DNA of 33,920 nt from Thermodesulfobacteriota bacterium. Lineage in GTDB: Bacteria > Desulfobacterota > Deferrisomatia > Deferrisomatales > JACRMM01. The notes below the pieces were generated by a model, which searched no databases, was not told the DNA's origin, and was given only the letters and a program-made list of their open reading frames with translations. The DNA lies in NCBI GenBank assembly GCA_040756475.1, contig JBFLZB010000028.1:1-33920 (forward strand). The letters are read 5' to 3'. Shown here piece by piece: positions 8,118 to 19,193 of this stretch (positions are counted from its first letter, which is position 1; every line of letters begins with the position of its first letter). The translations under genes and the position numbers were made by a program.

Positions 8118-8341
8118 ACCTGGGAAGGCTCAAGCCCGGCGAGTCGGGCAGGATCACCGCCATCGGTGCGGTCGGACCCCTCAAGCGGCGGCTCATGGAC
8201 ATGGGCGTGCTGGTGGGGGAGGTGGTGAAGGTGGTGAAGGTCGCTCCTTTGGGGGACCCCATGGAGGTGACGGTCAAGAACTACCAGCTCTCGCTGCGCA
8301 AGAAGGAGGCGGAGGGCATCGCGGTGGAGGTGCTGCCATGA
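8114..8341 (+). CDS. feoA: FeoA-domain protein, canonical
   Basis: 75 residues, the normal FeoA length. It reads MNLGRLKPGESGRITAIGAVGPLKRRLMDMGVLVGEVVKV and ends with NYQLSLRKKEAEGIAVEVLP. All parts of the small beta-barrel are present, with the RRLMDMGV helix typical of FeoA. It overlaps both neighbours by four bases (ATGA), so two FeoA proteins and FeoB should be made in a coupled way. The pair probably both contact FeoB, with the Cys-bearing version being the specialised one. Confidence 0.9.
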   Translation: MNLGRLKPGESGRITAIGAVGPLKRRLMDMGVLVGEVVKVVKVAPLGDPMEVTVKNYQLSLRKKEAEGIAVEVLP

Positions 8342-10641
8342 GCGCGAACCCCAGGCTCGACGAACACCCCGGACAGCGCCGCGCCGGCGCCCCGGCCTCC
8401 CCGCCCCCCCACCTGCGGCCCGTGGTCCAGCGGCCCCTCACCGTGGCCGTGGCCGGAAACCCCAACGCGGGCAAGTCCACCCTGATCAACGCCCTGGCCG
8501 GCTCCCGCCTGCACGTGGGGAACTGGCCCGGGGTCACGGTGGAGAAGAAGGAAGCCCAACTCGAGGTGGGCGGCCGCAAGGTCCGGCTCGTGGACCTGCC
8601 GGGTGCCTACTCCCTCTCCCCCTATAGCCAGGAGGAGATCATCGCCCGGGACTTCCTGGTCTCGGATCGGCCCGACGTGGTGGTGAACGTGGTGGACGCC
8701 ACCAACCTGGAGCGCAACCTCTACCTCACCGTGCAGCTCCTGGAACTCGGCATCCCCGTGGTACTGGCGCTCAACATCTACGACGAGGCCGAGGCCAAGG
8801 GCTACCGGATCGACGTGGCGGGCATGGCGGAGCGCCTGGGGGCGGCGGTGGTGCCCACGGTGGCCACCAAGAACCGGGGGATCCGGGAGCTCCTGGACGC
8901 GGTACTCACGGCGGCCTCCGACCCGGATACCCACCGGCCGAAGCGTCTGGGGTACGGCCCCGACGTGGACGCCGCGGAGGACCAGGTGTCCGCCGTCCTC
9001 CGGGACCGCCACCCCCTGGCGGCGGCGCGCTTCCCCGAGCGCTGGCTCGCCCTCAAGGCCATCGAGGGGGACCGCCACGTGCTCGAGGCCCTGGCGGAGG
9101 AGGAAGAGGCGCCGCCCCCTCCCCTTCCGGTGGACGACGCCCTGGCCCACCTGCGGCGGGCCCACGGGGAGGACGTGGAGGCTCTCCTGGCCGACGCACG
9201 TTACGCGCTGGCCTCGGGGCTGACCCGGGAGGTGCTCACCCGGCCCGAGCTCCGCAAGGCCGAGCTCACCGAGAAGATCGACCGGGTGGTGCTCAACCGC
9301 TTCCTCGGCATCCCGATCTTCCTCGGCGCCATGTGGCTCGTCTTCAAGCTCACCTTCGACGTCTCGACCCCCTTTGCCGACTGGCTCGACGAGCTGGCCG
9401 CCGGACCGTTTCGCCGCTGGGTCGAGGGCGGACTCGGCGCGGTGGGGGCGCCGGAGTGGACCGCCTCCCTGGCCCTGGACGGGGTCCTGGCGGGGGTGGG
9501 GTTCGTGCTGGTCTTCGTCCCGGTCATCTTCGCCATGATGTTCTTCATCACCTTCCTGGAGGGCAGCGGGTACATGGCGCGGGCGGCGTTCGTCATGGAC
9601 CGGGCCATGCACGCCATCGGGCTCCACGGCAAGTCCTTCATCCCGCTGCTCCTCGGGTTCGGGTGCAACGTGCCGGCCATCTATGCCACCCGCACCCTGG
9701 AGAACCCCCGGGACAAGGTCCTCACGGCGCTGCTCGTCCCCCTCATGTCGTGCGGGGCCCGGCTGCCGGTGTACGTGCTCTTCTCCGCCGTCTTCTTCCC
9801 GGCGACCGCCGGCACGGCCATTTGGTCCCTCTACGTGATGGGGATTGCCCTCGCGATCCTCATGGGGCTCCTCTTCAAGCGCACCCTCTTCCGGGGCGAG
9901 GCGCCGGTCTTCATCATGGAGCTTCCCCCCTACCGGATGCCGACCCTTCGCAGCCTCCTCATCCACACCTGGGAGAAGGGCAAGCACTTCCTGATCAAGG
10001 CGGGCACATACATCCTCGCGGTCTGCGTCTTCGTGTGGTTCCTCCTGAACCTGCCCTGGGGCGTGGAGCACAAGCGCGACTCCTACCTGGGCAAGACGGG
10101 GGCGGCGCTCGCCCCGGTCTTCGCCCCCCTAGGCTTCGGCACCTGGGAGGCCTCGGCGGCGCTCCTCACCGGCGTCATCGCCAAGGAGATCGTCGTGGGC
10201 ACCATGGGCGAGATCTACGCCCCCGAGGCCCTGGCGGCCGCCGCCGAAGCCGAGGCCGAGGAGGCGGGCGAGGCGCCTACCCTGGGGGAGGACCTGCGGG
10301 AGATCGCCACCTCCTTCCTCGGGGCCTTTGGAGCCGCGGCCCAAAACGTCGTCTCCACCTTCGGCGTGAGCAGCCTGGCCCTCGAGGAGGAGGAAGAGGA
10401 GGGAGGGGAAGCGTCATCCCTCAAGTCCGCCGTGGGGCGGGCCTTCACCCCGCTCTCCGCCTTCGCCTTCATGGCCTTCGTCCTCCTCTACATGCCCTGT
10501 GTGGTGGTGGCGATCGCCATGCGCCAGGAGTTCGGCACTTGGAAGTGGTTCGGGATCGCCTTCGCCTACCAGAGCGTCCTGGCCTGGACCGTGGCGCTCG
10601 TCATCTACCAGGGCGGCCGTCTCCTTGGACTGGGGGGCTGA
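8338..10641 (+). CDS. feoB: Ferrous iron transporter FeoB
   Basis: 767 residues, full length. The N-terminal G domain has G1 GNPNAGKST (40-48), G2 in NWPGVTVEKK, G3 DLPGAYS and G4 NIYD. A helical spacer domain follows (to about 310). The membrane part holds both gate motifs, GCNVPAIYATRTL and SCGARLPVYVL, and a further core segment with MPCVVVAIAMRQEFG. Between membrane segments a cytoplasmic loop is rich in Glu and Ala (ALAAAAEAEAEEAGEA, and EEEEEEGG later). It imports Fe(II) across the inner membrane. It is coupled to feoA upstream, and a small Cys-rich membrane gene begins one base after its stop. Confidence 0.97.
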   Translation: MSANPRLDEHPGQRRAGAPASPPPHLRPVVQRPLTVAVAGNPNAGKSTLINALAGSRLHVGNWPGVTVEKKEAQLEVGGRKVRLVDLPGAYSLSPYSQEEIIARDFLVSDRPDVVVNVVDATNLERNLYLTVQLLELGIPVVLALNIYDEAEAKGYRIDVAGMAERLGAAVVPTVATKNRGIRELLDAVLTAASDPDTHRPKRLGYGPDVDAAEDQVSAVLRDRHPLAAARFPERWLALKAIEGDRHVLEALAEEEEAPPPPLPVDDALAHLRRAHGEDVEALLADARYALASGLTREVLTRPELRKAELTEKIDRVVLNRFLGIPIFLGAMWLVFKLTFDVSTPFADWLDELAAGPFRRWVEGGLGAVGAPEWTASLALDGVLAGVGFVLVFVPVIFAMMFFITFLEGSGYMARAAFVMDRAMHAIGLHGKSFIPLLLGFGCNVPAIYATRTLENPRDKVLTALLVPLMSCGARLPVYVLFSAVFFPATAGTAIWSLYVMGIALAILMGLLFKRTLFRGEAPVFIMELPPYRMPTLRSLLIHTWEKGKHFLIKAGTYILAVCVFVWFLLNLPWGVEHKRDSYLGKTGAALAPVFAPLGFGTWEASAALLTGVIAKEIVVGTMGEIYAPEALAAAAEAEAEEAGEAPTLGEDLREIATSFLGAFGAAAQNVVSTFGVSSLALEEEEEEGGEASSLKSAVGRAFTPLSAFAFMAFVLLYMPCVVVAIAMRQEFGTWKWFGIAFAYQSVLAWTVALVIYQGGRLLGLGG

Positions 10642-13271: not shown

Positions 13272-13940
13272 TCAACGGTTTCGCACGGTGGCGTACCGCT
13301 CGCGCACCCGCACCCGGGTCACCTGGACCCGGCGCTTCTCCCGCACGGTGATGGTGTTGTCCCCTTCCGGGAGGGGAGTGTCCTCCAGGAGGCCGAGGAG
13401 CTCCGGCACGGCCTCCCGGTGGCCCAGGCGGCCCAGGAGCTCGGCGGCCCCGGCCCGCACCCGGGGGTCGGGGTGGGCCAGGGCGTCGCGGAGGACCCAG
13501 GGGTGCCGGCGCCCCAGCGCCTCCACCGCCGCGGCGCACTCCCGCGTGAAGGCCCGGTCCAGGCACGAGGCCGTGACCTCGTCCTCGGCGGTGAACTCGA
13601 TGTCCGGCTCCCGGGCCACGATGTCGAGAACCACCTCCCGATCCCCGAGGCCTTCCGGGTAGTCCACGGCGATCCTCCAGAGGATCTTCTTGCCCCGCCC
13701 GGGGGCGACGGCGGGTCCCACGTCCCCCTCGGCGCCTTTCAGCCGCAGGGCGAAGGTTGCGCCTGCGTCCTCCGATCCCACCAGGGCGACCTCACACGGG
13801 ACCTCGGCGGACAGATCGTAGGCGACCTCCACGACTCCCTCCCGCTCGGCCATGGAGACGCCGCTCACGACGGCCGCCCGCACGCAGGGGACCGCCGCCA
13901 GCCACAGCGCCGCCAGGACGGCTCCGAAGCGCGCTCTCAT
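13272..13940 (-). CDS. Secreted HEAT-repeat protein, N-terminal part (ends at in-frame TGA)
   Basis: 222 residues. Signal peptide (MRARFGAVLAALWLAAVPCVRA), then a beta-sandwich-like domain of about 95 residues (VVEVAYDLSAEVPCEVALV ... GKKILWRIAVDYPEGLG) of the kind found ahead of SUMF1-type and HEAT domains in secreted proteins. HEAT helices follow (CAAAVEALGRRHPWVLRDAL, VRAGAAELLGRLGHREAVPELLGLL), then a basic beta stretch (VREKRRVQVTRVRVRERYATVRNR) and TGA. The next HEAT repeats continue in the same frame after the TGA. The ATG overlaps the previous gene's stop (ATGA) and has GGAGG upstream. It probably acts as a periplasmic or exported scaffold; its partner is unknown. Confidence 0.7.
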   Translation of the reverse strand: MRARFGAVLAALWLAAVPCVRAAVVSGVSMAEREGVVEVAYDLSAEVPCEVALVGSEDAGATFALRLKGAEGDVGPAVAPGRGKKILWRIAVDYPEGLGDREVVLDIVAREPDIEFTAEDEVTASCLDRAFTRECAAAVEALGRRHPWVLRDALAHPDPRVRAGAAELLGRLGHREAVPELLGLLEDTPLPEGDNTITVREKRRVQVTRVRVRERYATVRNR

Positions 13941-14353
13941 CTCGGGATGCCCTCCTCGGTCACCTGGGGGTCCACCGCGTGGACCCTCTTCCACAGCGCC
14001 TCCTCGAGCTCGAAGACCGCCTCCTGCTCCACCGGGCTGCCGGGAGCGGCTTCCACGGCGGGCACGAGCAGATAGGCCAGCGGCCTCCACTGGGGATCGC
14101 GCGCCACGAGCCGCACGGGCACGCGGACGGTCTCGGCCCCGGTGTTTTGCACCAGGCCCCTCCAGGTCACCGTCACCAGGTCGTCCTCTTCGGCGGTCTC
14201 GCCTCGAACCTGGATGGTCTTGACCTGGACCCCCTGGGTGGGCGCCGCTCCCGGAGGCGGGGCGATGCCCCAGCAGGCGAGCCACGCCGCTCCTACGGCT
14301 GCGGCCCTCCAGGGGCGCGGGCCCCTGCCGCGATTGCGGACCCGGGGTTCCAC
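13937..14353 (-). CDS. Small secreted protein, function unknown
   Basis: 138 residues from a GTG six bases after the RelA/SpoT-like stop. It has an Arg-rich n-region, then a hydrophobic helix (AAAVGAAWLACWGIAPPPGAA) that looks like a signal peptide, then an all-beta domain: VQVKTIQVRGETAEEDDLVTVTWRGLVQNTG and VRVPVRLVARDPQWRPLAYLLVP. The pattern resembles small Ig-like or FxLYD-type domains in which a strand pair ends in a conserved VQNTG turn. No catalytic residues are apparent. It overlaps the HEAT gene by four bases, so the two secreted proteins are translationally coupled and probably act together. I do not recognise a named family. Confidence 0.65.
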   Translation of the reverse strand: MEPRVRNRGRGPRPWRAAAVGAAWLACWGIAPPPGAAPTQGVQVKTIQVRGETAEEDDLVTVTWRGLVQNTGAETVRVPVRLVARDPQWRPLAYLLVPAVEAAPGSPVEQEAVFELEEALWKRVHAVDPQVTEEGIPR

Positions 14354-14359
14354 AGGCTC

Positions 14360-16429
14360 TCAGACCACGGAGCGGAACACCCGGACCTCTTCCACGAAGC
14401 CGTTCTTGCGCAAGGCCCGCAAGAGGCGGTTCAGGGTGCGGTCGGTGCCCGGGTCGAACTGGATGGCGAGGGTGTGGTCCCCCCGTTGCGGAAGGCGAAG
14501 GTTGCGCACCTCGAGATTGAGCTCCTTGAAGGGGGTCAGCAGCGAGTAGAGGATGCCCGGGCCGTCCGAGAGGCGAAGCTCCATCTCCACGGTGTCCACG
14601 TCCCGGGGAGCGCCCCGCTCGGTCCGGTCCCAGGCCAGGGGCAGGCGGAGGGAGTCGGCGAGCAGGGGGCACTCCTGGCGGTGCACGAGCAGGCGCCCTT
14701 CCTCGGGCACCCCCTGGATTTCGTCGCCCTCCAGGGGGATGCAGCGGGGGCAGAAGCGGATGTGGGGGTCGCTGAAGTCGTAGCGGCGCACCTTGCGGCG
14801 GTCGTCGTCGCGGCCCCGCCACCGCCGCAGCAGCGCGCTGCCGGGGAGCTTGCGGCCGCCGCCGGGGGGCAGCCCCAGGATGTCTCCGATGTCCTCCTGC
14901 CCCAGGCAGACCCTGGCGTAGACCTCGTCCTCGCTCAGATCCGCGGCGGCGGCGCGCTGGGCCACCGCCTGGAGGGCGTCGTCCGGGGAGAGGCCGTGGG
15001 ACCGGGCAGCCTGGAGCAGCCAGTGGCGCCCCGTCTGCGCCGCCCGCTCGGCCTGGCGTCGGTTCATGGCCCGGCGCAGGCTCGCCAGCGCCTTGCGGGT
15101 ATGGGCCCAGGCCAGGTACCGGTCGTCGGCCACGTTTTGCCCGGCGGTGACGATCTCCACCCGGTCCCCCGGGCGCAGCACCGTGGCCAGGGGCACCTCG
15201 TGGTTGTTCACCCGGGCGGCCAGCGCGCGCAGCCCCAGTTGTTCGTGCACGGCAAAGGCGTAGTCCAGGGCGGTGGCCCCCTCCTCGAGGCTGAACACCT
15301 CCCCCTTGGGGCTCGTCACCTGGACGGCGTCGGGCCGGTGGAATCGCAGGAAGTCCTGGATGTCCATGGCCTCGTTCTGCAGGAACTCCCGCAGGTCGTC
15401 CATGTATTCGAGGTTGAACTGGGGGCTGGTGATGTCCATGGAGAGGAGCCCCAGGCGGTTGAACCGGTCGGCGGCCCTGCTGGCCAGGTAGAAGTTCACG
15501 ATGCGGCCCTGGTAGGACACCCGGGTCTCCAGGGCCCGGTACCCGTTCTTCCGGGGTACGCTCAAGGTGTCGGCAAAGGTGCCGGGCAGCGCCCGGAAGT
15601 TGAGGTGGATGCGCCCCAGGGCTCGGTAGGCGTCTTCGCTGGTCTCGGTCACCAGGCGCACCGTGAAGAGGTTCTCGGGTACGGGCGCCACGTCGGGACG
15701 GAAGCGGTTCCAGCGGTACTCCGCCCGAACCCCCAGGTCGCCGGGGAAGACGGCCGCGAGCTTGGCCCGGAGCTCCTCCAGGGGGCGCACCCACCCCTCC
15801 TTGAGCTCCAGCTGCGCCCGCTGGAAGATGGCGAACTGCTCCGGGGTGAGGATGGGGCCGATCTTCTCGGTCAACCGCTCGGCCAGGTCGAGCATGCACA
15901 GGCGCCGGCAGATGTTGGCGTACATCTCCGCGCTCTCGCGGGCGATGCGCACCTGCTTGTCGCGCTTGAAGATCTGGAGGCTCTCCAGGTTGTCCAGGCG
16001 GTCGGCGAGCTTGACCAGGAGCACCCGGATGTCCTGGAGCACGAAGCTGAAGAGCTTCTGGTAGGTGTGGACCCGGCTGTCCTTGATCTTGGTGAGGGCC
16101 AGGACGAGCTCGGCGGCGTCGGGGAACTCGCTGCGGAGCTCCGGATAGGTGTAGACCGTGTCTTCGAGGGTGTCGTGGAGCAGCGCCGCCTCCACCGAGG
16201 CCCAGTCGATGATCCGGCCGAACCGGCTCACCTCCATGGCCGTGCGCACGGTGTGCCAGATGTACTCCTCGCCGGTCTTCCGCACCTGCCCCCGGTGGAA
16301 CTCGTCTGCCCGCGCCAGGGCGCGGTCCAGCCGCTCGGCCAGCACGCCCACCTCGGCGTCTCCCACCTCGTGGTGGATGATGAACTGGCTGAGGATCTGA
16401 TCCTTTTCCCGTGCGAAGCGATCCGACAC
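14360..16429 (-). CDS. RelA/SpoT homologue with intact HD hydrolase and degenerate synthetase
   Basis: 689 residues. The HD hydrolase domain (about 25-180) keeps H45 and H59, H85-D86 with E89-D90 in HDTLEDT, and D143 in LLVKLADRLDNL. The region where the (p)ppGpp synthetase should be keeps the fold outline (SEDAYRALGRIH, LPGTFADTLSVPRKNGYRALET). It lacks the RxKxxYSIxxKM loop, and the catalytic ExQIRT strand reads IVNFYLAS. A TGS domain (VQVTSPKGEVFSLEEGATALDYA), a Cys-bearing region (RFCPRCIPL) and a C-terminal ACT domain (VDTVEMELRLSDGPGILYSLL) follow. This suggests a ribosome- or stress-linked (p)ppGpp hydrolase without synthetase activity. A separate bifunctional Rel elsewhere in the genome is expected. 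Start GTG with GAGAGA upstream. Confidence 0.85.
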   Translation of the reverse strand: MSDRFAREKDQILSQFIIHHEVGDAEVGVLAERLDRALARADEFHRGQVRKTGEEYIWHTVRTAMEVSRFGRIIDWASVEAALLHDTLEDTVYTYPELRSEFPDAAELVLALTKIKDSRVHTYQKLFSFVLQDIRVLLVKLADRLDNLESLQIFKRDKQVRIARESAEMYANICRRLCMLDLAERLTEKIGPILTPEQFAIFQRAQLELKEGWVRPLEELRAKLAAVFPGDLGVRAEYRWNRFRPDVAPVPENLFTVRLVTETSEDAYRALGRIHLNFRALPGTFADTLSVPRKNGYRALETRVSYQGRIVNFYLASRAADRFNRLGLLSMDITSPQFNLEYMDDLREFLQNEAMDIQDFLRFHRPDAVQVTSPKGEVFSLEEGATALDYAFAVHEQLGLRALAARVNNHEVPLATVLRPGDRVEIVTAGQNVADDRYLAWAHTRKALASLRRAMNRRQAERAAQTGRHWLLQAARSHGLSPDDALQAVAQRAAAADLSEDEVYARVCLGQEDIGDILGLPPGGGRKLPGSALLRRWRGRDDDRRKVRRYDFSDPHIRFCPRCIPLEGDEIQGVPEEGRLLVHRQECPLLADSLRLPLAWDRTERGAPRDVDTVEMELRLSDGPGILYSLLTPFKELNLEVRNLRLPQRGDHTLAIQFDPGTDRTLNRLLRALRKNGFVEEVRVFRSVV

Positions 16430-16485
16430 GCGCCGATCTCTCTGTGGGCAGGCCGTTGCTGGGATCTTGGCAACTTCTGGCCAGA

Positions 16486-17370
16486 CTATACCGATTTGGC
16501 GGGAAGCGGTAGGGCTCCGCGCCCTGCGAGCTCCCGGGCTGCCTGTTGGGCCGTGCGGCCCGACCGGATGCCCCGGGCCATGGCCCAGCGCACCGCCTCG
16601 GCTTCCCAGCCCGGGGGCGTGGCCGCCCCCAGCGCCGCCAGATGTCGGCCCACGGCCTCCAGGTAGGTGGCCTCGTCGAAGGGGTAGAACCCCAGGGAGA
16701 GGCCGAACCGGTCTGCCAGGCTCACGGTCTCGGCCACGGATTCTTCCGGATGGAGCTCGTCGTCGCCGGGAAAGGCCTCGGGGACCAGGTGCCGGCGGTT
16801 CGAGGTGGCCGCCACCAGGGTGTTTGCGGGCCGTTCCTCGAGCCCTCCCTCCAGAAGCACCTTGAGCTCCCGGTACCTCTCCCCCGGGGTCCCGAAGGAG
16901 AGGTCGTCCAGGTAGAGCACCCAGCGCCGCGAGTCCAGGGCCAGGGCGTCCAGCACCCGGGGAAGGTCCGGGGCGCGATGTTCCGGAACCGCCAGGAGCA
17001 CGAGCTCCTCACGGGGCACCGCCAGCGGCAGGGAACGTACCAGGGACGACTTGCCCGTGCCCCGCTCTCCCCACAGGAGCACGTCGTGGGCCGGCAGGCC
17101 CCGGGCGAACCGCTCGATGTTGGCATAGAAGGCCGCCTTCTGGCGTGCGATGCCTGTCAACAAGGCGGGGTCGGCCGCCGCGGGTCGGCCCACGGCCCGA
17201 AATCCCCCCGCGCCCTCCCAGACGAAGGTGCGGCACTCGGAGGCCGCAGGGGGCGTCGGGGCGCGGTGGAGGGTCTCGCCCCCTCGGGGGCCCAGCGCGG
17301 CGTCGAGGCGCTCGGCGATCCGGTCCAGGCGGGCCAGCAGAGCGGGCAGCAGAGGGGGGTCGGCGGTCAT
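16486..17370 (-). CDS. DUF815-family AAA ATPase
   Basis: 294 residues. Walker A GERGTGKSS (101-108 core), Walker B VLYLDDLSF (151-159), and ATSNRRHLVPE (sensor-1-like) followed by a long insert and a C-terminal lid. RQKAAFYANIERFARGLPAHDVLLWG is the conserved lead-in of DUF815. Members are cytosolic ATPases of unknown target. The ATG overlaps the stop of the upstream membrane peptidase (TGA within ATGA), so the two are translationally coupled; the ATPase may serve the peptidase. A 56-bp gap separates it from the RelA/SpoT-like gene. Confidence 0.88.
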   Translation of the reverse strand: MTADPPLLPALLARLDRIAERLDAALGPRGGETLHRAPTPPAASECRTFVWEGAGGFRAVGRPAAADPALLTGIARQKAAFYANIERFARGLPAHDVLLWGERGTGKSSLVRSLPLAVPREELVLLAVPEHRAPDLPRVLDALALDSRRWVLYLDDLSFGTPGERYRELKVLLEGGLEERPANTLVAATSNRRHLVPEAFPGDDELHPEESVAETVSLADRFGLSLGFYPFDEATYLEAVGRHLAALGAATPPGWEAEAVRWAMARGIRSGRTAQQAARELAGRGALPLPAKSV

Positions 17371-19193
17371 GGGGGAGGCGCCTCCTCGAGGAACTTCTGG
17401 CGCTGGCGCAGATAGTAGCCGGGATTCGCGGGGTTTCGGGCCAGCGCCGCGTCGATGGCCCGCAGCGCCCCCTCCCGGTCTCTCGCCCGCCAACGCGCCT
17501 CGGCCAGGGTGTCGAGGATGTGGGGGGAAGCCAAGATCCGTGCGGCCATCTCCGCCAGGGCCAGCGCCCGCTCGGGCCGTTGGAGGGCCGGGTCCCGGGC
17601 GGTCACGTACAGCCACGCCAGGTTGTTCAGGGCCTCCGCGTTTCGGGGCGCAAGCCGGATGACCTCCTGGTAGGCGGCCTGGGCGTCTCGCTCCCGCCCG
17701 GTCTCCTGGTACAGGCTCCCCAGGAGGAACCAGGAGGGGGCGTCCCGGGGTTCCTGGGCGACCCGGTGGAGCAGCCCCCGCTCGGCCACGAAGCGGTTGA
17801 GATCCCGGTGCAGCGGCCCCGTGTGGAGCGCCACCACGAGGGCTGCCGCCAGGAGCACTCCGAGGGCGAACCACCGGGTGAGGCGGCGCACCTTGCGGTG
17901 GTGCCGGGAAAGCACGCCGGGGTCCCGAGCCGCCGTTACGAGAAAGTCGACCCGTTCGGCGATGGAGCCGTGGTGCCACGAGGGAAGATCCCGGATGTCC
18001 CCCGAGTGGAAGCTCACCCGCTCCAGGGCCGAGACCAGGGGCCCGGGCCGGCCCGTGACCTCCAGGGCGAACGCGTCGGCCTGGCGCTCGAAGGCCCGGC
18101 TCACCGCTCCGAAGAGGAACCGGAAGTAGGCGAACAAGAGCCCCAGGAGCCCCAGGGTCATGGCCGCCGAGGTGTAGAGGCTCGCCTGGGGCCGGCGCAG
18201 CGCCTCGGGGTCGGCGAGGCCCCACCAGGCGATGCCCGCCTCGGAGAGGCGAAAGAAGATCCCCGCCAGGCACACGTACCCGACGAAGAAGAGCAGGAAG
18301 AACCAGAGGTGGCGGTGGCGCACGTGGCCGGTCTCGTGGGCCACCACGGCGTCGACCTCCTCCGGGGAGAGGATCTCCACGAGCGCCGGCGTGAGCAGGA
18401 GGTAGCGGAAGCGGGGCAGCAGGCCCACGATCCCCGCGGTCATCACCCGCCCCTCCAGGAGCGGCCAGTACAGGATCTCGCGCACCCGGAGCCGCAGCCC
18501 GGCGCTCAGCCCCTCCAGGTGGTCCCGCAGGGGGCCCGGGGGCACCGGCGCGCACCCCCACATGGCCTTGACCAGCACAGGGAGGAAGATGCCCACCAGG
18601 GTCAGGAAGACCGGCGCGTAGAGGAGTTGGAGCAGGGGGTTGGCTTCGAGTGCCGCATATCCCCGGGGCCAGAGGGTGGCCACCAGGTCCAGGAGGCCCA
18701 TGAGGGCCAGCCAGGGGAGCAGGATCGGGAGCTCCATCCGGGCGTGGGCCACCACGAACCCCCAGCGCGTGCCGCTGCGGCCCAGCAGCACCCCCTGGAG
18801 CGGGTACGCCTCCCACCACAGCACCCCGAGGAGGAAGACGAAGGGGAGCACGCCGGCCGCGCTCCCCAGGGCCGCGGAGTGTTCGCCCAGGGCCCGGGCT
18901 ACGAGCTCCGGGTAGCTCGTGGCGTACATGAGCAGCGCAAAGGGCACCAGCATCACCCCCTGGTACCCCTGCACCATCCCCGAGAAGGACGCCCGGAGGC
19001 TTCGGGCCTCGGCCTCGTCGTGGAGGGCCCGGGCCATGAGGCCGCGAAACCGGATGCGCAGGGCCACCCACGCGGCCAGGAGATAGACGAGCTGGTGAAC
19101 CGCCTCCCCGAGGCTCCACGCTGCGCCCGCGGCGTGGGGCGCCAGCGCCTGCACGGCAATGGCGATCAGAAAGGTGAGGACGCTTCCGTACAT
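17367..19193 (-). CDS. Multi-pass M48-family metalloprotease with C-terminal TPR domain
   Basis: 608 residues. About six membrane segments (for example 2-20, 33-48, 80-95, 112-128, 155-175, 188-208) lead to the peptidase core. The core has HETGH (H286, E287, H290) and the third zinc ligand E369 in AFERQADAFAL, the HtpX/Ste24 pattern. Two more membrane segments flank it. The last 150 residues hold at least three tetratricopeptide units (WFLLGSLYQETGRERDAQAAYQEVIRLAPRNAEALNNLAWLYV and following). Likely role: turnover of membrane proteins, with TPRs recruiting substrate or a partner. The start has GAGGAG upstream. It is coupled to the DUF815 ATPase. Confidence 0.9.
   Translation of the reverse strand: MYGSVLTFLIAIAVQALAPHAAGAAWSLGEAVHQLVYLLAAWVALRIRFRGLMARALHDEAEARSLRASFSGMVQGYQGVMLVPFALLMYATSYPELVARALGEHSAALGSAAGVLPFVFLLGVLWWEAYPLQGVLLGRSGTRWGFVVAHARMELPILLPWLALMGLLDLVATLWPRGYAALEANPLLQLLYAPVFLTLVGIFLPVLVKAMWGCAPVPPGPLRDHLEGLSAGLRLRVREILYWPLLEGRVMTAGIVGLLPRFRYLLLTPALVEILSPEEVDAVVAHETGHVRHRHLWFFLLFFVGYVCLAGIFFRLSEAGIAWWGLADPEALRRPQASLYTSAAMTLGLLGLLFAYFRFLFGAVSRAFERQADAFALEVTGRPGPLVSALERVSFHSGDIRDLPSWHHGSIAERVDFLVTAARDPGVLSRHHRKVRRLTRWFALGVLLAAALVVALHTGPLHRDLNRFVAERGLLHRVAQEPRDAPSWFLLGSLYQETGRERDAQAAYQEVIRLAPRNAEALNNLAWLYVTARDPALQRPERALALAEMAARILASPHILDTLAEARWRARDREGALRAIDAALARNPANPGYYLRQRQKFLEEAPPP

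Follow-up and report, generated by a model that had tools for sequence, protein, structure and literature searches.

The window analysed here, a 33,920-nucleotide stretch of DNA from a Thermodesulfobacteriota bacterium of the order Deferrisomatales, carries on its reverse strand a gene for a RelA/SpoT homologue (RSH), whose open reading frame lies where a preliminary description of the sequence had placed it (Table 1). The opposite strand is open across this region for 969 codons (positions 13757-16666), probably as a by-product of high G+C, and a full-length FeoB ferrous iron transporter is encoded on the forward strand at positions 8338-10641 (632.6 bits to TIGR00437). The preliminary description had read the grouping of the RSH with secreted and membrane-protease genes as a link between (p)ppGpp decay and envelope state. 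When the 25 open reading frames of the window were searched against 10 other RSH neighbourhoods, which extend at most some 8 kb to either side, recurrence beyond the RSH was limited to two genes, M48-TPR in 4 of the 10 and DUF815 in 2 (genomes G010 and G011), and the small secreted and HEAT-repeat frames of the window had no match there. With so few recurring neighbours and a gene order that differs, the envelope link was rejected as a general feature; the recurring M48-TPR and DUF815 genes leave the proposed connection with little support.

Table 1 Features of the RSH gene and its upstream neighbours (nucleotide positions in the window; residue numbers of the encoded RSH)
Feature	Position	Strand	Remarks
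Hydrolase-only long RSH	14360..16429	-	689 aa, GTG start; start backed by aligned orthologue N-termini
HD (hydrolase) domain, intact	15830..16321	-	Residues about 37-200; Pfam HD_4; 11/11 residues
HDxxED motif, HDTLED	16160..16177	-	Residues 85-90
Pseudo-synthetase domain	15482..15814	-	Residues about 206-316; 5/17 synthetase residues; RelA_SpoT sub-cut-off
RAEYRWNRF replacing the RxKxxYS loop	15701..15727	-	Residues 235-243
NFYLAS replacing EVQIRT; catalytic Glu to Asn	15479..15496	-	Residues 312-317
Core linker	15326..15481	-	53 residues by the count used; order's partners 63-65
TGS domain	15146..15325	-	Residues 369-428; Pfam TGS
Zinc-finger-like region	14630..14797	-	C560-x2-C563, H583, C587; no usual CC pair
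C-terminal ACT/RRM-like domain	14372..14602	-	Residues 610-686; fold matches and long profile match
DUF815 AAA ATPase, directly upstream of RSH	16486..17340	-	Near RSH in 3/11 genomes
M48 peptidase with TPR repeats, upstream	17367..19193	-	Near RSH in 5/11 genomes

The window RSH is a long RSH by its HD domain, synthetase fold, TGS domain and C-terminal ACT/RRM-like domain. In a Pfam search of the protein, HD_4 scored 74.2 bits (cut-off 27.2) and TGS 56.1 bits (cut-off 22.2), and RelA_SpoT (PF04607) reached 26.5 bits over residues 254-311, just below its cut-off of 27, and 29.6 bits in the genome search. The synthetase fold is nevertheless present, as residues 1-333 of a predicted model (mean pLDDT 80.2, pTM 0.52) match the catalytic halves of Rel proteins (7oiw_A, Z 30.6, rmsd 2.8, 312 aligned residues). 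That a TGS and an ACT domain remain, as first described, was borne out by Pfam for the former; the C-terminal domain had no Pfam match, and its assignment comes from the match of model residues 606-689 to ACT-type folds (Z about 11) and from a family profile that covers residues 34-680 against full-length RelA (8fr8), nearly to the chain end. The NCBIfam model TIGR00691, applied to the window RSH alone, gave 281.9 bits over residues 37-676, short of its cut-off of 499.2. Among proteins of known structure, the window RSH is most closely related to long RSHs. The top Foldseek match is full-length Acinetobacter baumannii SpoT (7qpr, E 9.8e-30), and VIA-align assigns higher Z scores to bifunctional Rel proteins, those of B. 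subtilis and S. aureus (up to 30.7), than to 7qpr_A (25.6). The long matches have rmsd values above 16 and the arrangement of domains along the whole chain is poorly determined, so the model supports no claim about a compact state. The small alarmone hydrolases (SAH/MESH1) share the HD hydrolase and match the model with Z about 12; these are single-domain proteins, unlike the window RSH, and the TGS and C-terminal domains rule out a lone HD hydrolase as its identity. In the zinc-finger region (residues 558-587), a C-x2-C arrangement is found in all 11 members of the window family (the window RSH and 10 orthologues), as against an adjacent Cys pair in all 73 aligned controls, which are Rel proteins of genomes without a hydrolase-only copy. 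The zinc-finger Cys and the TGS His have functional roles in RSHs, and the shifted Cys may mean a different ribosome contact.

Which of the two activities would such a protein retain? Alignment to E. coli SpoT finds all 11 hydrolase residues tested in place, as the preliminary description had held for the metal and catalytic residues of the HD domain: R50 (R45), Y56 (Y51), H59 (H54), H85-D86 (H78, D79), E89-D90 (E82, D83), K140 (K140), D143, R144 (R144) and N147 (N147), where the A. baumannii SpoT numbers in brackets were assigned via the E. coli SpoT alignment and motif spacing, not by residue alignment to 7qpr. All 11 are likewise present in every family member. For A. baumannii SpoT, PMC9974481 reports that hydrolysis is abolished when R45 is substituted and that the enzyme becomes HD-inactive on substitution of Y51, E82, D83 or N147. 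The synthetase region is in the opposite condition, with 5 of 17 key residues left in the window RSH and 3-5 of 17 across the family. Both synthetase lesions first described, in the RxKxxYSI loop and at the Glu, are confirmed by the alignment. Synthetase catalysis depends on the Glu of EVQIRT (E319 in E. coli SpoT); the window RSH has N312 there and N253 where E. coli SpoT has Asp at position 259, and across the 11 family members the Glu position holds Arg, Ser, Thr or Asn. The full-length alignment revealed no substitutes for the lost synthetase residues elsewhere in the window RSH. The orthologues (n = 10) are 48-70% identical to the window RSH, and the hydrolase-only copy occurs in 11 of 12 Deferrisomatales genomes, being absent from G007, a genome that is 81% complete. 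A residue pattern common to all 10 orthologues is due neither to chance nor to sequencing error, and its occurrence throughout the order except in G007 argues that the window RSH is no decaying relic.

A complementary picture is presented by the second RSH of the genome, for which the preliminary description had proposed a search. This protein, the sole other long RSH, is encoded on contig 214 and retains 16 of 17 synthetase residues; its HD domain keeps all four metal ligands and carries two lesions, which in A. baumannii SpoT numbering are D83V and N147S; most partners in the order have more. Such a partner occurs in 12 of 12 Deferrisomatales genomes, with 16-17 of 17 synthetase and 1-10 of 11 HD residues, and at least one of the five essential HD residues (R45, Y51, E82, D83, N147) is lost in every one. 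The HD lesions differ among the partners of the order, and metal ligands are lost in 6 of 12. The sole changes in G009 and G010 are the conservative D83E and N147D, respectively, and since these are single and milder, residual hydrolysis is possible there. A search with PF13328 (HD_4) detected just the two RSHs in 11 genomes and one protein in G007, which leaves none of these 12 genomes with a small alarmone hydrolase of the HD_4 type. In the genome search HD_4 scored the hydrolase-damaged partner at 169.1 bits versus 76.6 for the window RSH. For this reason domain scores, which rate damaged partners above intact copies, were dropped as proof of activity; they mislead, and the residues themselves must be read. 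Automatic annotation likely misnames both partners for the same reason. Five of the 12 genomes, the window genome not among them, contain an additional, weaker RelA_SpoT match (G003:C69, G004:C32, G006:C1:3052731, G008:C87 and G009:C37; open frames of 292-518 aa), and these proteins are possibly small alarmone synthetases.

The domain lost by one copy is the domain kept by the other, and conservation follows the same division. Mean pairwise identity (36 pairs each) was 69.7% for the HD domain and 58.0% for the synthetase domain of the hydrolase-only copy, and 54.0% and 67.8%, respectively, for the partner; the 73 controls averaged 62.3% and 55.1%. When pairs from the same genomes were compared, the hydrolase-only copy had the better conserved HD domain in 36 of 36 cases and the partner the better conserved synthetase domain in 34 of 36. 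These values bear on the idea that the window RSH is a catalytically dead regulatory pseudoenzyme, as might be supposed of a divergent protein in which one of two catalytic domains already appears dead. However, with 11 HD residues invariant in 11 members and the HD domain its most conserved domain, we regard that idea as extremely improbable. An alternative hypothesis is that the substrate of the window RSH is a different nucleotide, for example (p)ppApp or NADPH, which certain HD small alarmone hydrolases cleave, and that the partner still clears (p)ppGpp. There are features of the family that would fit this: Ser occupies position 150 in 7 of 11 members versus Thr in all 73 controls, the residue before N147 has changed from His to Asp in 11 of 11, and the weak matches of the window RSH include a (p)ppApp hydrolase. 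Yet the guanine-stacking Arg (R50) is present in all 11 members, and A. baumannii SpoT is little affected by loss of the T150 contact, according to PMC9974481. Moreover, hydrolysis requires residues that the partner has lost, and the order yielded no further HD_4 hydrolase, which makes a different substrate very unlikely.

The window RSH is, judging from its sequence, very probably a dedicated (p)ppGpp 3'-pyrophosphohydrolase and its partner a hydrolase-defective synthetase, the two jointly replacing a bifunctional Rel. This reading agrees with the initial view of a full-length RSH that would have lost synthesis and kept hydrolysis, a view to which residue pattern and conservation both point. 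The split rests on residue patterns, conservation, complementarity, the lack of another HD_4 hydrolase in the order and an association across the phylum. The Mn-dependent HD site of the window RSH would degrade the alarmone, its synthetase domain would serve as a non-catalytic scaffold within the long-RSH architecture, and the second RSH would supply synthesis, being now defective in hydrolysis. The hydrolase copy presumably came first and would have relieved the partner HD domain of selection, and Deferrisomatales would thereby have a division of labour that resembles RelA/SpoT but is distinct from the one in Beta/Gammaproteobacteria.

The closest known counterpart is SpoT[Hs] of Moraxellaceae (A. 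baumannii, 7qpr), which, according to PMC9974481, likewise combines an intact HD domain with a pseudo-synthetase, TGS and C-terminal domains, has a shortened α6-α7 loop and Core, and is accompanied by a hydrolase-dead RelA[hS]. The window genome has the same set: a kept HD domain, lost synthetase residues and a hydrolase-damaged long RSH partner. The α6-α7 segment comprises 23 residues in the window family versus 31-34 in the partners, and the Core 53-54 versus 63-65. Short disordered regions accompany the hydrolysis-ready state in A. baumannii SpoT (PMC9974481), and by analogy the shortened loop and Core of the window family probably hold a compact, hydrolysis-ready state. SpoT[Hs] differs in belonging to another phylum, and a clade joining the window family with E. 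coli SpoT was rejected (p-AU 0.010) in a tree with long branches and no Moraxellaceae SpoT row. Moreover, the partner in this order keeps the KDY motif of bifunctional Rel, whereas E. coli RelA has DDY.

Is this arrangement peculiar to one order? Matches to the profile of the window family are confined to Deferrisomatales (11 of 297 genomes of the phylum at 1203 bits or more, the next at 311), yet two further groups of hydrolase-only copies were found, so that 50 of 395 genomes carry one overall. Group 2 (L155-L162, in G133, G183, G228, G268, G306, G324, G342 and G380) occurs in 8 of 395 genomes from families f62, f85 and f100 (at least 855 bits, next 305); its open frames of 483-544 aa end shortly past TGS, with a dead synthetase and an HD domain intact at 11 of 11 residues in seven of the eight (Tyr51 is Cys in G306). 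Group 3, found in 31 of 395 genomes from families f18, f40, f66, f73, f79, f92 and f102 (at least 757.9 bits, next 505.6), is full length, has Leu at the catalytic Glu and keeps all HD residues in 31 of 31. The catalytic Glu is missing from all 50 copies, and the synthetase lesions differ between groups. The Core counts are 50 residues in group 2 and 57-61 in group 3, and neither group has a clear α6-α7 shortening. The resident Rel is damaged in all 31 genomes of group 3 and in 5 of 8 of group 2, being intact in G306 and both f100 genomes (G324 and G342); in G306 it is the hydrolase-only copy, not Rel, that lost Tyr51. Genome G368 has two long RSHs (L141 and L149), both apparently hydrolase-competent, and with 6% contamination it perhaps represents two organisms.

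Across the survey, an essential hydrolase residue was lost from the resident Rel in 46 of 49 partners versus 0 of 81 controls, although these controls are mostly high-scoring matches and no random draw, so that a bias toward intact HD domains is possible. The tally omits the G007 partner (no hydrolase-only copy found), the G008 partner (a near copy of that in G006), both G368 copies (both HD-intact), E. coli RelA and SpoT, three duplicates and four masked or split proteins (G199, G122, G033 and G045; the HD region is masked in G199 and G122). In the fragmentary controls G045, G165, G057 and G158 the HD motifs are intact by eye. On a tree built without HD columns, HD damage of the resident Rel amounts to 6 changes, and an independent-pairs test has 2 contrasts on starred branches and 4 on all, with which 0.05 is unreachable; with so few independent contrasts the association is not significant once relatedness is allowed for. 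A prediction was also fixed before 13 group 3 genomes were viewed, namely that the hydrolase copy would have 11 of 11 HD residues and no Glu, and that the partner, while keeping at least 15 of 17 synthetase residues, would lack an essential HD residue. Both halves were borne out in 13 of 13, and because these genomes are related to ones already seen, the result is a check of the pattern and not 13 independent events. All five essential residues were intact in 40 of 40 new controls, two of which have Arg for Lys at position 140.

A further question is whether the hydrolase-only copies share an origin. In a tree of 116 rows and 426 columns a single branch, with a support of 99, separates all 35 hydrolase-only rows from E. 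coli SpoT and RelA, and a long-branch warning applies to this placement. An origin of the copy by duplication within the order, with the other groups as unrelated convergences, would be compatible with the division of labour proposed above and would suit pairs that are limited to certain families and synthetase lesions that vary by group; long-branch attraction may, in addition, pull the groups together. However, a clade of the hydrolase-only copies with the partners of the order was rejected (p-AU 0.005), which together with the 99-support branch makes this origin rather unlikely. The corresponding clade of group 2 with its partners was also rejected (p-AU 0.009), and that of group 3 was borderline and thus not clearly rejected (p 0.067 and 0.051). 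The one-clade origin test used a 45-row set. When one hydrolase-only group at a time was included, it attached near the base or to long rows (E. coli SpoT, G368 copy b), and this variable attachment means that a single origin is neither shown nor excluded; in an HD-only tree the window family (group 1) and group 2 are still joined, again with the long-branch warning. For the hydrolase-only copies we favour a single ancient origin. We hypothesize, tentatively and at slightly less than even chances, that a distinct ancient lineage of hydrolase RSHs, apart from Rel, RelA and SpoT, repeatedly freed the resident Rel to become a RelA-like synthetase. Different stages would then be represented among present-day genomes, in that the partner is intact in G324 and G342, has lost one essential residue in G268 and has lost metal ligands in G003 and G011. 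If the hypothesis is true, the RelA/SpoT split would have been reached repeatedly, with several of its stages open to observation.

Two other systems invite comparison. Rel and RshB of Bacteroidetes are likewise duplicated long RSHs in which Rel is without key HD residues, and they differ in that RshB is described with both activities, a one-sided split (PMC6994654). RshD of delta-proteobacteria is likewise a second-copy long RSH (Atkinson 2011, PMC3153485), and it differs in being written RshD[HS], with both domains present. Moraxellaceae are described as having split synthesis completely from hydrolysis (PMC9974481), and the kind of system observed here is therefore already known from Moraxellaceae SpoT and RelA; a reciprocal, phylum-wide RSH split in this phylum was not found in the literature searched, which covered few subscription papers. 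Published hydrolase-only long RSHs found in that literature are from Moraxellaceae only, and the split has been told as a story of Beta/Gammaproteobacteria. The reciprocal split in the present phylum falls outside those classes and extends to 50 of 395 species, mostly beside a hydrolase-damaged Rel and with intermediates included, and these species offer natural replicates for asking why a bifunctional Rel splits.
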